From contig NZ_CP019791.1 in assembly GCF_002007645.1 (NCBI RefSeq), positions 3,278,593-3,342,592 on the forward strand: 64,000 nt of DNA, written 5' to 3'. This stretch comes from Anaerohalosphaera lusitana. Lineage in GTDB: Bacteria; Planctomycetota; Phycisphaerae; Sedimentisphaerales; Anaerohalosphaeraceae. Below, piece by piece: positions 44,030 to 56,983 of this stretch. Made by a program: the position numbers and the translations under genes. The notes below the pieces were generated by a model. The model was not told the DNA's origin, made no database searches, and was given only the letters and a program-made list of their open reading frames with translations. The stretch's first letter is position 1. The number at the start of each line of letters is the position of its first letter.

Positions 44030-44314
44030 CAGAACGACCGGTCAGTACGGCTGCCTGAGATATTTTAACGCCTGTTGCATAACTCCATACAACAGACTCA
44101 AGTCCATGCCTTACCGCCCTTCTGACTCATTGCAAAGACGCAAAGATATACAGTCTCAATTCTGATATTCGCATCATTTTAAGCATTTTCAGCATATTTA
44201 TTGTTGCCGGGTGCCATGCTGCGCGTTATTTGGTAATTGAGAAGCGTTTTGGACACATCATTATTGGGGAGAGCTATTAGCCTGCAAGGCATATCACATT
44301 GGGGGAAGGAACTC

Positions 44315-51658: not shown

Positions 51659-52699
51659 ATGTTTCGTAAAAAACAATCAATTGGTCTGGATACAAACACC
51701 AGCGGTACAACTCTGGTATTGATGAGAAGAAGAAAAAACGGCTATAAGCTAAAGGCTTTGGCTCAGGCGGATCACTCAGAGAGCTTTGTCGACTCCTTCG
51801 ACCCTTTGGATCATATCCGAAAGTGTTTTATTCAGACAAGATCCAAACCCAGGAGAAGTCAGCGTGTCGCATGCGGGCTAAATGGAACAGAGGTAACTGT
51901 CAATCGATTTGATTTCCCGGCCATGTCGGAACAGGAACTCGAATATGCGATCCATTATGAAGCCGGTGAAGTATGCCCCTTCAACATTGACCGCTGCGTC
52001 GTTGACTTCTGCTTGGCCGAGGATCAGAAAAACAAGAAGCCGCTTGAAAAACGAGAACGTTTGCGGGGTATAACAGTAGTTGCAAAAAAACAGGCAATAG
52101 AAGAAAAGATCAGCACACTTAAACGACTTGGATTGAACTGTCGATTAGTCGACGTCAATGGACTTGCGCTTCTGAACTGCATAGATGAACTTGAATACAA
52201 AGGTGAGGGACGTGCATATGCGGCTGTATCCCTTAATGAAAGATCAACCACAGTTGCAGTCAAACTTGCCGACGGCACCTGCATAACCAGGGAACTGCAA
52301 GGCGGCATAGAAATGATATGTAGGAATATCAGCCAGGCATATCAGATGGAACGATCACATGTCAGGCAAAGATTTGATCATGCCTCGCCCCTCGATCAGC
52401 AGTTCCAGGAAATGCTTTTAACAGGTTCCAGAGAAGTGCTTGCACAAATCGACGAAACCCTGAAGTTCTCAACGTCACAGGGCACAAATAAACAGATGGC
52501 CATCGTTTATCTTTGCGGCCCAAGAGGAATAACCGACGCTTTTGGAATACCGCTCAACAACATGCTCCCTTATGAGGTAGAAATCTGGAACCCAATGGAC
52601 AGGCTTTTTATATCGAAGAGAGTCTCCCGAACAGGTATCGCCGGCAAGCTCAGAGGTTCGGCCGCGATCGCATTAGGTCTTGCAATGAGGTTAGCTTAA
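51659..52699 (+). CDS. pilM: PilM-like protein, locus B, with altered nucleotide motif
   Basis: A 346-residue actin-fold protein in the pilM position, followed directly by pilN. The first motif reads GLDTNTSGTTLVLM (9-22), whereas PilM normally has a DxGxxxxK pattern, so nucleotide binding may differ. Other parts, such as ELEYAIHYEAGEVCPF (85-100) and YAAVSLNERSTTVAV (about 185-199), fit PilM. AAAGGAG is six bases before the ATG. One base separates its stop from pilN. It likely binds the PilN tail and pilus motors. Confidence 0.8.
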   Translation: MFRKKQSIGLDTNTSGTTLVLMRRRKNGYKLKALAQADHSESFVDSFDPLDHIRKCFIQTRSKPRRSQRVACGLNGTEVTVNRFDFPAMSEQELEYAIHYEAGEVCPFNIDRCVVDFCLAEDQKNKKPLEKRERLRGITVVAKKQAIEEKISTLKRLGLNCRLVDVNGLALLNCIDELEYKGEGRAYAAVSLNERSTTVAVKLADGTCITRELQGGIEMICRNISQAYQMERSHVRQRFDHASPLDQQFQEMLLTGSREVLAQIDETLKFSTSQGTNKQMAIVYLCGPRGITDAFGIPLNNMLPYEVEIWNPMDRLFISKRVSRTGIAGKLRGSAAIALGLAMRLA

Positions 52700-52700
52700 A

Positions 52701-53351
52701 ATGTATAAGATCAATCTGATAAACAAAAAAAAGCATAAGAAGAAAGCCAGAATACTTCCCACTATCATGTGGACGATCCTGCTTGCTGTCCCGATCGGTG
52801 GAGCTGTTTACATAGCGCTGGAATACTGGGCGACAGAGTACAAAATCACAATCGCCAACAGCCAGCTTAACGATGTCGAAGCGGATCTTCAAAAATGGCA
52901 CGAAGACATTGAGTTCCTTCAGCAGGCGAACACGACCATCCATGCTTCCAACAAACAACTCACCGAGCTGGCTGCCCTTCTCGAGAGACAAGTTCAATGG
53001 ACCAGTATTCTTGGTGACCTTGTAGACATCCTTCCTGAAAAGATGATCATGCAGGAACTGACCGTATCTCGCATTTCCAAAACTATTAGAACAGAAAAAG
53101 AGAACCCCTTCACAGGCAAAAAAGAAAAGGAACTGATAGAACGCGGACTGTGCAGCAGCCTTGTCTGCCAAAATTCGGACGCTGCTGATCAAGACGTCAA
53201 GATCTACATAAAAAAACTGTGGCTTTCAGAAGAGCTTGGAAATGCCGTCAAAGACATCAGGATGACTTCTCTTCAGGACACAAAAGAGAAAGGCGTAAAC
53301 GGCAGCAAATATGAAATAGAATGCATTCTTAGCCCGGGGAGGTCGTTATGA
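52701..53351 (+). CDS. pilN: PilN-like inner-membrane alignment protein, locus B
   Basis: A 216-residue bitopic protein. The cytoplasmic head MYKINLINKKKHKK matches the PilN INLLP-type opening. A helix spans about 21-42, followed by a coiled coil (55-100) and a periplasmic domain with VDILPEKMIMQELTVSRI (about 109-126). An Arg/Lys-rich insertion near 128-145 is unusual. It starts one base after pilM and overlaps pilO by four bases (ATGA), pointing to coupled translation. The role in the alignment complex follows from the fold and order. Confidence 0.82.
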   Translation: MYKINLINKKKHKKKARILPTIMWTILLAVPIGGAVYIALEYWATEYKITIANSQLNDVEADLQKWHEDIEFLQQANTTIHASNKQLTELAALLERQVQWTSILGDLVDILPEKMIMQELTVSRISKTIRTEKENPFTGKKEKELIERGLCSSLVCQNSDAADQDVKIYIKKLWLSEELGNAVKDIRMTSLQDTKEKGVNGSKYEIECILSPGRSL

Positions 53352-53989
53352 ATCTTAAAAAAGGCAGTGTGATTTCATGGATTTTGCTGCTGGTCCTTTG
53401 CGCCGCATGCATAACAGTGTATTTGACCGTTCTACAGAACAGTAAAAATCAGCTTTCAGAAACCAAAAAACTACTAGCGGAAAAACAGGATCAGCTTGAA
53501 TTCATGGAATTCGGCCAGGGCAAACAACAATTGAATGAGATGAGGAACAATCTGGCCACATCCTCAGACACACTGACAAAATTTGTCTGCCCGGTCGAAA
53601 GCATTAGCGATATCACCTTCTCAATTAGCCAGCTAGCTTCAGATTTAGGTTTGGAACAGTATAGCTGTGAACAAAGAAAGAAAAGCCCATATGAAAAAAT
53701 GGAAGGCATGAACAATCTGGCAGTATGCCGTCTTCATATCAACTTCAGATCTGAATTCAATGAGTTCGCAAGATTTCTAAACAAGCTGGAAAAACACCAG
53801 CCGGTGATATTCATAGACAAGTTCAGCATCCAGCCTGATTCAAAAGAGACAGGTAAATACGTAGACATGGTTCTGGCATTTTTTGTAGATATCGGACCAG
53901 ACTCGCAAAAGGAACTTACACATTTGCTGGCAAAGTCTCATGAACTGGCAAACGCAAACGATCGACAAGACTCAGAAAGGCCACAATGA
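53348..53989 (+). CDS. pilO: PilO-like inner-membrane alignment protein, locus B
   Basis: A 213-residue bitopic protein: tail, one helix (about 9-26, ISWILLLVLCAACITVY), coiled coil, then a PilO-type domain. The element LHINFRSEFNEFARFLNKLEK (133-153) is the PilO/PilN-type ferredoxin-like core. The ATG overlaps pilN and has GGGGAGG five bases upstream. Its own stop overlaps the ParA-like gene start by four bases. It should pair with PilN in the periplasm. Confidence 0.82.
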   Translation: MNLKKGSVISWILLLVLCAACITVYLTVLQNSKNQLSETKKLLAEKQDQLEFMEFGQGKQQLNEMRNNLATSSDTLTKFVCPVESISDITFSISQLASDLGLEQYSCEQRKKSPYEKMEGMNNLAVCRLHINFRSEFNEFARFLNKLEKHQPVIFIDKFSIQPDSKETGKYVDMVLAFFVDIGPDSQKELTHLLAKSHELANANDRQDSERPQ

Positions 53990-54783
53990 TAACGATATCC
54001 GTTGCAAACCAGAAAGGCGGTTGCGGCAAAACTACGACAGCCGTGAATCTTTCAGCCGCTCTGGCGATGACTGGGAAAAGGGTTGTCCTGATTGATCTGG
54101 ATCCTCAGGGACATGCGACCCTGGGAGTAGGTTGCGATCCGGATCAGTGTGAACGTACTATATACGATGTAATGTCAAATGGACTGACACCTTTCAGTTT
54201 TGCCAGCAGCCGAACATCCGTAAACGGATTGGATATTGTACCAAGCAATGTATTGCTCTCAGGCCTTGAGACCGAGATATCGACTATGTACGGAAGAGAG
54301 TATTTGCTGCACAGCCGGCTGGGACAGATTGACAATCTGTATGATGTTTGCGTAATCGACTGCTCACCCTCTCTAAGTCTTCTCACTCTCAATGCCCTCG
54401 TAGCAAGTGATGGGTTGATCGTGCCCGTTCAGACACAATACTATTCGTTAGAAGGATTGAAACAGTTACTCGAAACGGTAAGCATTGTGCGAGAAAGATT
54501 CAATCCTGTTTTGGACATACTCGGCATCCTCCTTACATGCTATGAATCGAGAACGCTTTTGAGCAAACAGGTCGAATCACAAATGCGTGATCATTTCGGC
54601 AATCTTGTCTTCAAGACGATAATCCACAGAACCGTACGCATTGCAGAATCACCGGGGGCAGGTCTGCCGGTAGTGTACTATGATCCAGCATGTAAAGGAT
54701 CACTCGAATACAAATCTTTAGCTGATGAGATCGATCATGAAATCAAGATCAGGACTACACAAGCAAGTTTCCTCAATATTTGA
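53986..54783 (+). CDS. ParA/MinD-family ATPase embedded in pilus locus B
   Basis: A 265-residue ParA-type ATPase. The deviant Walker A KGGCGKTT (10-17), Walker A' LIDLDPQGHAT (35-45) and Walker B VIDCSPSL (123-130) are intact, so it should bind ATP, dimerise and hydrolyse ATP. ParA-type proteins partition DNA or position large complexes such as chemoreceptor arrays, flagella and pili. Its start overlaps the pilO stop (ATGA), and its 3' end overlaps the PilP-like gene, placing it firmly inside the pilus operon. No ParB or centromere-like repeat is present here. It may position the pilus machine; a chromosome-segregation role is less likely in this context. Confidence 0.88.
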   Translation: MITISVANQKGGCGKTTTAVNLSAALAMTGKRVVLIDLDPQGHATLGVGCDPDQCERTIYDVMSNGLTPFSFASSRTSVNGLDIVPSNVLLSGLETEISTMYGREYLLHSRLGQIDNLYDVCVIDCSPSLSLLTLNALVASDGLIVPVQTQYYSLEGLKQLLETVSIVRERFNPVLDILGILLTCYESRTLLSKQVESQMRDHFGNLVFKTIIHRTVRIAESPGAGLPVVYYDPACKGSLEYKSLADEIDHEIKIRTTQASFLNI

Positions 54784-55399
54784 CGGCACGCCCCTGCCTG
54801 TCAAGCAGGAGCAGACGACTAGCGAGACTAGAAGTAAGTCGCGTCAGGGAAGTTCGCTGCCTTTACGAGGAGACGGTTTCACGAAACCAGGGCCTTCAAC
54901 TGTCACCAATAATAGTGCAGTCTACTCAAGAGCACAGGCCAGTAGTGATCCCAAATACAGTACAGCTTCGATCGTCATGCTCATCTTGCTCGCTGTCTTA
55001 TTTGTCGCGATCGTATACTGGCTATACCTCAAGCCGCCGGAAACACCCTCACAGATTCTCAATCAGCCGGCAGAAATACAAACATCTGATGTTGCCGAAC
55101 CCGTTCAAATAAACTGGCCCGAGGCCCCTGAATGGCCGCTAAACATGAGAGACCCCATGACTCGACCCGCCAAAATCGAAACCGCAGAATCTGTACAAGA
55201 CGCACCAACCGAACTTGTGACGCCGCAGCTTAAAGGAATCGTTTACAGGTCCGGCGGACAGGCATCCGCGTTGTTTGGACAACAGATCGTTTACGAAGGC
55301 GATAGCGTCCAGAATCATAAAGTTGAAAAAATAATGGCTGACCGGGTGATCTTGAAAAATGAAGTCGGGGAAGAAAAAGTCGTCCTAACAGGCAAATAA
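54737..55399 (+). CDS. PilP/GspB-like pilus alignment protein, locus B
   Basis: A 220-residue bitopic protein: a Ser/Thr/Lys-rich cytoplasmic tail 1-75, a membrane helix at 77-97, a Pro-rich periplasmic linker, the element NMRDPM (136-141) similar to the RDPF region of PilP, and a C-terminal domain from 163. That domain starts TPQLKGIVY and has IVYEGDSVQN (184-193), as in GspB/PilP. It probably connects the PilMNO complex to the secretin encoded next. The ATG at 54737 lies inside the ParA gene (47-base overlap) with only a weak ribosome site; an ATG 12 bases earlier is equally possible. Confidence 0.72.
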   Translation: MKSRSGLHKQVSSIFDGTPLPVKQEQTTSETRSKSRQGSSLPLRGDGFTKPGPSTVTNNSAVYSRAQASSDPKYSTASIVMLILLAVLFVAIVYWLYLKPPETPSQILNQPAEIQTSDVAEPVQINWPEAPEWPLNMRDPMTRPAKIETAESVQDAPTELVTPQLKGIVYRSGGQASALFGQQIVYEGDSVQNHKVEKIMADRVILKNEVGEEKVVLTGK

Positions 55400-55417: not shown

Positions 55418-56983
55418 GTGCCAAAGCCGCTTCCAGCCAACGTAAAATTGGCAACAAGCACGAAAGGGTGTCCTATGAAGAAACAGACAATCAAAAGCAT
55501 TTCGATATTTGCCGTGATCTGTTTTGCTGTATTGTGTCTGGTCAGCTCCCGATTGACCGCAGCGGAGCATCAGGCAGCAGAAGAAGAAAAAAGCGAAACT
55601 CGAGAATTGAGCCAGATCGAAAAACGAATGCAGCAGCCTGTCAGTCTTGATTTCCGCGAGACACCCATAGAAGATGTACTCAGAATGCTCGCAAAACAGG
55701 CCGACGTCGATATCATAAAGAGCCCGGAAGTAACGGGTAATGTCACAGCAACCCTTACCGAGGTCCCGCTATCGGAAGCTCTTGATAACATTCTTGCAGC
55801 ACACGGATATGGATATGTAACCACGAAGAATATGATCCGTGTCGTTCCACGCAGCCAGATAATAAATGTAGTCGAACCCATGGTCAGTCGGATTTATCGC
55901 GTCACCTATGCCGACGTAGTGGAAGTTGAGAAGGCTCTAAGCAGATTCTTGTCGGACAGTGGCAGTTTATCTTCCAATCCTGGGACCAGCAATATTATCA
56001 TAAACGACACGGAGAGCAAGATTGCTGCTATCGATGAATTCATCGAGGAGATCGATCGTGTCACGCCGCAGATACTGGTCGAAGCAAGGATCTATGATGT
56101 TTCAACTAATGATTCGCTGGACCTGGGAGTAGAATGGTTCGCAGGCAGACGAACACAATTTGACCCTGACACCGGCCTGGCGGTTAGCGGCGACACGGAC
56201 CCGTTCATCAGGGGTGAATTTGATTCCGGACTGCAAAATACTACCGCAACGGACGGTCTGCTGCGATTTGGAATTCTAAATGAACACGTAGACATCGATG
56301 CAACAATCTTTGCTGAACAGGAACAGGGATGCGCAAAACTGTTGGCCAATCCGCGGATCCTGGTCATGGATAATGAGCTTGCAAATATCAAGATCGTTTC
56401 AGAAGTCCCATTCCAGCAGCTCACTCAGACCATGGGTGGCGGTAATATTGGTACGACCGAATTTAAGGAAGTGGGCGTTTCACTGGAGGTGGTACCCCAT
56501 TTGACACGGGATGGCATGATAAGACTACAGCTTCGGCCGGAATTCAGCGTCCAGGTCGACACTGTTTCCATTATAATACCCAACCAGGAAGCCACGATCA
56601 CAAGTCCTCAACCAGTCATCGACAAACGCGAAGCAGTAACTACCACATTGATCAAAGACGGCCAAACGGTGGTCATCGGCGGCCTAAAGAAAAAGGACAC
56701 GTTCAAGGATACGAGCAAAATACCTCTGCTCGGTGATATCCCGCTGGCGGGAGGCTTGTTCCGATTTGACTCCGAAAAGATCGTAAACAGCGAGCTGGTC
56801 GTCTTCATTACACCTTACATTGTTTCCGAACCAGTATTGACCGCCAACGAAGCAGCAAGACTGAAACAAACTGAATTCTGTTCTCCGGACTGCAGAAAAT
56901 CTCTTCAGGAAACTTGCGGACAGGTCACACACCTCGAAGGCATGGAAGAACCTGAAAAAGAGCACCCATATATAGACAAATAA
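55418..56983 (+). CDS. pilQ: Secretin (PilQ/GspD family), last gene of locus B
   Basis: An outer-membrane channel-forming secretin. It contains an N0/STN-like domain (VSLDFRETPIEDVLRMLA), an N1 domain with YADVVEVEKALSRFLS, and the secretin domain with VEARIYDV, LANPRILVMDNE, VVPHLTRDGMIRL and the end motif IPLLGDIPLAGGLF. The family is certain. Two starts are plausible: the GTG at 55418 (AGGGGG six bases upstream, 521 residues) and the ATG at 55475 (AAAGGG upstream, 503 residues), which gives a shorter signal peptide. The C-terminal tail holds three cysteines (CSPDCRKSLQETC), which is unusual. The only secretin in the window, it may also serve locus A. Ends at the 57006 terminator. Confidence 0.9.
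   Translation: MPKPLPANVKLATSTKGCPMKKQTIKSISIFAVICFAVLCLVSSRLTAAEHQAAEEEKSETRELSQIEKRMQQPVSLDFRETPIEDVLRMLAKQADVDIIKSPEVTGNVTATLTEVPLSEALDNILAAHGYGYVTTKNMIRVVPRSQIINVVEPMVSRIYRVTYADVVEVEKALSRFLSDSGSLSSNPGTSNIIINDTESKIAAIDEFIEEIDRVTPQILVEARIYDVSTNDSLDLGVEWFAGRRTQFDPDTGLAVSGDTDPFIRGEFDSGLQNTTATDGLLRFGILNEHVDIDATIFAEQEQGCAKLLANPRILVMDNELANIKIVSEVPFQQLTQTMGGGNIGTTEFKEVGVSLEVVPHLTRDGMIRLQLRPEFSVQVDTVSIIIPNQEATITSPQPVIDKREAVTTTLIKDGQTVVIGGLKKKDTFKDTSKIPLLGDIPLAGGLFRFDSEKIVNSELVVFITPYIVSEPVLTANEAARLKQTEFCSPDCRKSLQETCGQVTHLEGMEEPEKEHPYIDK

Follow-up and report, generated by a model that had tools for sequence, protein, structure and literature searches.

A ParA-type ATPase encoded within a type IV pilus operon of Anaerohalosphaera lusitana and a conserved peptide of its PilP-like neighbour: a candidate docking pair

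Genes of the pilus operon

The window (the whole 64-kb stretch of Anaerohalosphaera lusitana DNA that was analysed) carries, on the forward strand, a PilM-like gene (51659 to 52699; Pfam PilM_2, 2.8e-29), a gene in the position of pilN (52701 to 53351), a PilO-like gene (53348 to 53989), a gene for a ParA-type ATPase of 265 amino acids (53986 to 54783; AAA_31, 1.7e-57, and CbiA, 8.1e-27), a gene for a PilP/GspC-like inner-membrane protein of 220 amino acids (54737 to 55399, with an alternative start at 54725) and a PilQ-like secretin gene (55418 to 56983; Secretin, 2.4e-43, and the PilQ model, 7.8e-77). The second of these is named by position and size: it has no significant Pfam match and its product matches the Amuc_1101 PilM-like pilus family weakly (0.0022). 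The PilO-like protein is recognised by T2SSM_b (8.6e-6) and GspM_XpsM (8.8e-9), with PilO itself just under the cut-off (2.3e-4), and the PilP-like protein by T2SSC (2.7e-6). Judged by these models this is a type IV pilus PilMNOPQ operon, in which PilM and the secretin are clear, and PilO and PilP weak by sequence. ORFs resembling PilB, PilT and PilC were identified by eye at 44237, 46340 and 47423.

The PilP identity, weak in sequence, is supported by the fold of the predicted model. Foldseek places the GspC homology domain (3oss) at rank 1 (probability 1.00, E 0.02) and PilP (2y4y) at rank 3 (probability 1.00, E 0.3). The predicted layout includes a basic N-terminal peptide, KSRSGLHKQVSSIFDGTPLP (54740 to 54799), at the cytoplasmic end, the side being deduced from the topology. 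This is followed by a disordered, low-complexity linker (residues 22 to 76; 54800 to 54964), which is modelled with low confidence, a single transmembrane helix (a hydrophobic stretch at about residues 77 to 99, 54965 to 55033; residues 72 to 98 in the model) and a periplasmic domain of the PilP/GspC homology-region kind (residues 161 to 216; 55217 to 55384).

The ParA-type ATPase

The parA ORF starts with an ATG and shares the four bases ATGA with pilO, which ends at 53989. Its overlap with the PilP-like gene is 47 bases if translation of the latter starts at the ATG at 54737, or 59 if the in-frame ATG at 54725 is used. A preliminary description of this DNA had given these overlaps as 4 and 47 bases, in agreement with the ORFs. 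It had also described the Walker motifs as intact, and all are indeed found: a deviant Walker A motif, KGGCGKTT (residues 10 to 17; 54013 to 54036, forward strand), which is invariant in an alignment of 36 ParA sequences, DLDPQG (residues 37 to 42) and VIDCSPS (residues 123 to 129).

With its deviant Walker A, A' and B motifs and its AAA_31 and CbiA matches, the protein is, by sequence, a ParA/MinD-family ATPase of the ParA (Soj) branch. Its nearest solved relatives are a ParA family protein (8ray, 1.2e-59) and Soj of Thermus (1wcv, 1e-58). Among the matches listed, it falls below the curated cut-off of each of the specific NCBIfam ParA/MinD models.

The preliminary description stated that type IV pili usually have no ATPase of this type. 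This is too broad, as Tad (type IVc) pili possess CpaE/TadZ, a ParA/MinD ATPase without which the secretin CpaC is not properly localised (PMC13170226); the operon does differ in its PilMNOPQ context. Both are ParA/MinD ATPases belonging to a pilus system, but CpaE/TadZ, the product of a Tad locus, has in addition a receiver-like domain and, at its C-terminus, an amphipathic membrane helix, whereas the window ParA is a bare Soj-type protein, with a single ATPase domain from residue 1 and no CpaE/TadZ model at cut-off among the matches listed, and its operon is of the PilMNOPQ kind and includes a PilP that carries the peptide. None of the three marks of CpaE/TadZ (receiver-like domain, C-terminal amphipathic helix, Tad locus) could be recognised. 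Keyword searches of the open-access literature gave no description of a PilMNOPQ operon that includes a ParA. Positioning by ParA and a partner is known, as is CpaE/TadZ; the combination of a ParA with a tagged PilP in a PilMNOPQ operon appears to be unreported in that literature.

Conservation of the gene order and relation to Soj

We searched 59 related genomes and examined the best 30 loci, to which a scan of 84,980 species genomes added more. The order pilM-N-O-parA-P-Q, or the part of it covered by the locus, occurs in some 45 loci, several of which are duplicates, one genome having been reached by way of two collections. Of 248 genomes sampled across the class, 31 have a ParA at E <= 1e-60, and 30 of these belong to the window's own taxonomic order (presumably Sedimentisphaerales). 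The order pilO-parA-pilP-pilQ, which the preliminary description proposed to look for in other planctomycetes, is therefore conserved across that taxonomic order. When a sample of the phylum was searched with a PilM-linked ParA, the examined hits outside the window's order had no adjoining recognisable pilus genes. Two differing parA genes lie in tandem between pilO and pilP in two loci (L011 and L014, the same as L267 and L268).

It is conceivable that a chromosomal or plasmid Soj-type ParA had inserted by chance into the pilus operon and has no pilus function, and the best solved relatives of the protein are indeed ParA/Soj proteins. We consider this very improbable. The place of the gene is not a matter of chance, since it recurs in dozens of relatives, and sequence comparison separates these ParAs from Soj. 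In a tree of 126 rows the PilP-linked ParAs cluster with orphan Phycisphaerae ParAs, apart from Soj. In a bootstrapped tree of 70 rows a branch with support 98/93 separates the PilP-linked, PilM-linked and orphan ParAs from the Soj, archaeal and CBM-fused ParAs. If the root is assumed to lie among the latter, the PilM- and PilP-linked pilus ParAs would have one origin. Moreover, the genome already has a Soj-like ParA (C1:173910), and its best ParB, with the N-terminus LGRGLDSLLGG, is at C1:445211. The 64-kb window contains no parS-like site and no match to the ParB_N domain. Neither a grouping with chromosomal Soj nor, in the window, a parB with parS sites was encountered; either would have told against a dedicated pilus ATPase. 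The Soj-like ParA and the best ParB of the host are about 270 kb apart and do not form one operon.

The pilus system shares with chromosomal ParABS (Soj-ParB-parS) the ATPase fold and motifs and a partner encoded by a neighbouring gene and carrying an N-terminal peptide (LGRGLxxL in ParB). It differs in that the pilus ParA forms a separate clade, the partner is a membrane protein and the window has neither a ParB_N match nor a parS-like site.

The N-terminal peptide of the PilP-like protein

Every parA-linked PilP-like protein with a complete N-terminus (58 ORFs; 47 of 47 distinct stretches) begins with a peptide of consensus KxKxGLHKxVSSIFDGVPxP. This is the most conserved part of PilP: the mean majority identity is 0.73 in the peptide, 0.34 in the linker, 0.50 in the membrane helix and 0.59 in the periplasmic domain. 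The cytoplasmic Ser/Thr/Lys-rich tail of the PilP-like protein had been put forward as a possible binding partner of the ATPase. The tail is the likely partner, but specifically through its first 20 or so residues, the conserved peptide; the Ser/Thr/Lys-rich linker itself is not conserved. A motif scan of the host genome gave a single match, the window PilP (E 9e-12; next 1.3).

Most of the peptide (54740 to 54783) shares its DNA with the C-terminus of the window ParA, and it could be supposed to be a mere by-product of the overlapping frames. Of 57 loci, 36 have its first codon within the end of parA and 21 have it beyond the parA stop; since the peptide is retained in those 21, this explanation was rejected.

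As a control, we looked for the secretin in genomes lacking this parA. In all six operons that have a PilP-position gene and pilQ but no parA separating these from pilO (L119 to L124), the PilP-position protein is without the peptide, and the genomes in question have no match in the pilus-ParA range. One of these genomes (G035) belongs to the same genus as a parA-bearing one (G045). Mapped on a PilQ tree (53 loci), the presence of parA and that of the peptide are concordant throughout, and the peptide follows all four changes in the presence of parA. These are four independent contrasts, for which a sign test gives p 0.125, the lowest value that four pairs allow, so that p 0.05 is out of reach.

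In published ParA/MinD systems it is a basic, disordered N-terminus of the partner that binds the ATPase, and the partner may itself be a physical component of the cargo (PMC10241942). Peptides of 20 to 22 N-terminal residues suffice in Spo0J, MinE, PomX and McdB (PMC7993993; PMC12204374). The pilus operon likewise appears to encode, beside the ATPase, a partner with a conserved basic N-terminal peptide. A likeness of the PilP peptide to the N-termini of ParB was noticed by eye. Comparison of profiles gave a null result (median shuffle p about 0.5) and BLOSUM62 a borderline one (p 0.055), and, as neither is significant, homology was set aside and we call this likeness a functional analogy.

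The peptide on other proteins and in other lineages

A peptide HMM was run on 4,816 ORFs and hits outside PilP were counted at 7.5 bits or more. All 19 such hits belong either to a gene that follows a parA at a distance of no more than about 310 bases or to a ParA, in its C-terminal tail. In one tandem locus, pilO-parA-pilO'-parA-pilP (L054:2633-5193), the peptide is at the N-terminus of the second, duplicated PilO. Hits also include the PilM-like proteins of L074 (Candidatus Erginobacter) and L071, as well as small non-pilus proteins.

In Omnitrophota (145 genomes), and in two further lineages, there are loci in which a PilM-like gene follows parA. Some of the Omnitrophota PilM-like proteins (L224, L226, L227 and L230) carry a nearly identical N-terminal peptide, that of L224 being KPTGLNKKVSSIFSGIP (also given as MAKKPTGLNKKVSSIFSGIPS). 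Several other PilM-linked Omnitrophota peptides are only loosely similar (for example, SPKKIDSKKVVSRIFG). For other Omnitrophota ParAs the next gene encodes a ParB with the N-terminus LGKGLxALIPE. Across these sequences parA and the tag are strictly linked, and this extends to tags on PilM-like proteins of other lineages.

Orphan Phycisphaerae ParAs (L059, L065, L157/L164, L160 and L066) carry a GLxK-type motif in their own C-terminal tail (for example, RGMQKQVSTIFQGAWIP). They resemble fusions of the ATPase with its partner peptide. In an AlphaFold model of the L059 ParA the tail is of low confidence and has no confident placement. If the peptide docks on ParA, a motif in the protein's own tail could be explained as self-regulation. 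Such ParAs would also be natural if a single hub recruited both proteins. On that view the peptide would have its binding site on a third factor (a polar hub, PilB or some other cytoplasmic protein), with ParA no more than co-inherited. We regard this as improbable: the motif is found on PilP, PilM-like proteins, a duplicated PilO and small non-pilus proteins, in every case close to a parA, and is missing where there is no parA; a third factor would need to have the identical pattern.

In two proteins of 1163 amino acids (L051:4873-8364 and L055:5001-8492), a putative membrane helix comes after an N-terminal ParA domain. Each of their genes is followed, at a distance of a few hundred bases, by one for a protein of 90 to 97 amino acids with the peptide KHKAGLHKDVARIFDGVWIP.

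Proposed function

We propose that this is a dedicated ParA with the type IV pilus machine as its cargo and that the PilP peptide is a docking and ATPase-activating tag on a subunit of that machine, a reading to which we give a probability of roughly 0.6. The tag would comprise the N-terminal 20 or so cytoplasmic residues of PilP, joined by the flexible linker to the membrane helix and to the periplasmic domain, which would contact the secretin. Dimers of ParA carrying ATP would attach to the nucleoid, without sequence specificity, by way of conserved arginines. Inner-membrane PilMNOP subcomplexes would bind the nucleoid-bound ParA with their tags and so provoke hydrolysis and release. The subcomplexes, and hence the pilus sites, would in this way be spread or placed along the cell and between daughters.

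Three arginines of the window ParA each align with an arginine of Thermus Soj: Arg189 (ESRTLL; 54550 to 54552, forward strand) and Arg215 and Arg218, the ends of RTVR in HRTVR (54628 to 54639, forward strand), which aligns with RNVR of Soj PRNVR. Soj arginines of this region are implicated in binding nucleoid DNA. Since they are retained here, the nucleoid is the likelier matrix, and the window ParA may bind it. The C-terminus, IDHEIKIRTTQASFLNI, has no obvious amphipathic or membrane-targeting helix.

These features bear on another explanation, in which the ParA-peptide pair gates the assembly or the number of pilus machines, as an on/off switch in the manner of FlhG or BcsQ, thrown by ParA on the PilP tail, with no nucleoid transport. 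Such a switch would explain the same gene data (the order and the peptide in 47 of 47), and the tight translational coupling suits a regulator that acts stoichiometrically. Relatives of the FlhG type govern both number and placement. The arginines aligned with the DNA-binding arginines of Soj and the lack of an evident C-terminal membrane-targeting helix argue against it, and we consider it unlikely, if a more serious competitor than a third factor.

Docking, ATPase stimulation, nucleoid binding and positioning are what we infer by analogy with cargo-positioning ParA/MinD systems (McdAB of carboxysomes, PpfA-TlpT and ParC of chemoreceptors and PomXYZ of the division site). These also combine a Soj-type ATPase with a partner carrying a short, basic, disordered N-terminal peptide. 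Here, in contrast, a type IV pilus machine is the proposed cargo and one of its transmembrane subunits the partner, and the peptide (GLHKxVSSIFDG) is strongly conserved and occurs on differing subunits in differing lineages. A wider reading is that in several phyla a dedicated clade of ParAs has type IV pilus machines as its cargo, these being marked by a portable peptide on which ParA docks, that this tag has moved between PilP, PilM and PilO beside parA and that the nucleoid is the track. We hold the chances of this to be about even.

The placement of type IV pilus machines is understood in few species; in Myxococcus the PilQ secretin is recruited through peptidoglycan-binding AMIN domains (PMC10653833). 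If the dedicated-ParA reading is correct, the list of ParA cargos will gain a transmembrane machine whose partner protein is one of its own subunits. The shortness of the tag allows a precise test of the idea that the machine is a cargo, and the rule that the gene after parA bears the tag will provide a way of finding the cargos of orphan ParAs in genomes.

Other ParA proteins

The host genome has a second ParA (C1:300589-301341; L002:1060-2253) near purE, with a C-terminal fusion that by eye resembles a glycogen-binding domain of the CBM48/AMPK type. Long ParAs of this kind are present in many relatives. Another planctomycete family, f67, and a relative (L280 to L286, L294 to L297, L299 and L300) have loci that lack neighbouring pilus genes and in which the gene after parA encodes a protein of about 180 to 205 amino acids with a conserved N-terminus of LGxDPLxWMK form. 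This may be a further ParA/partner pair.
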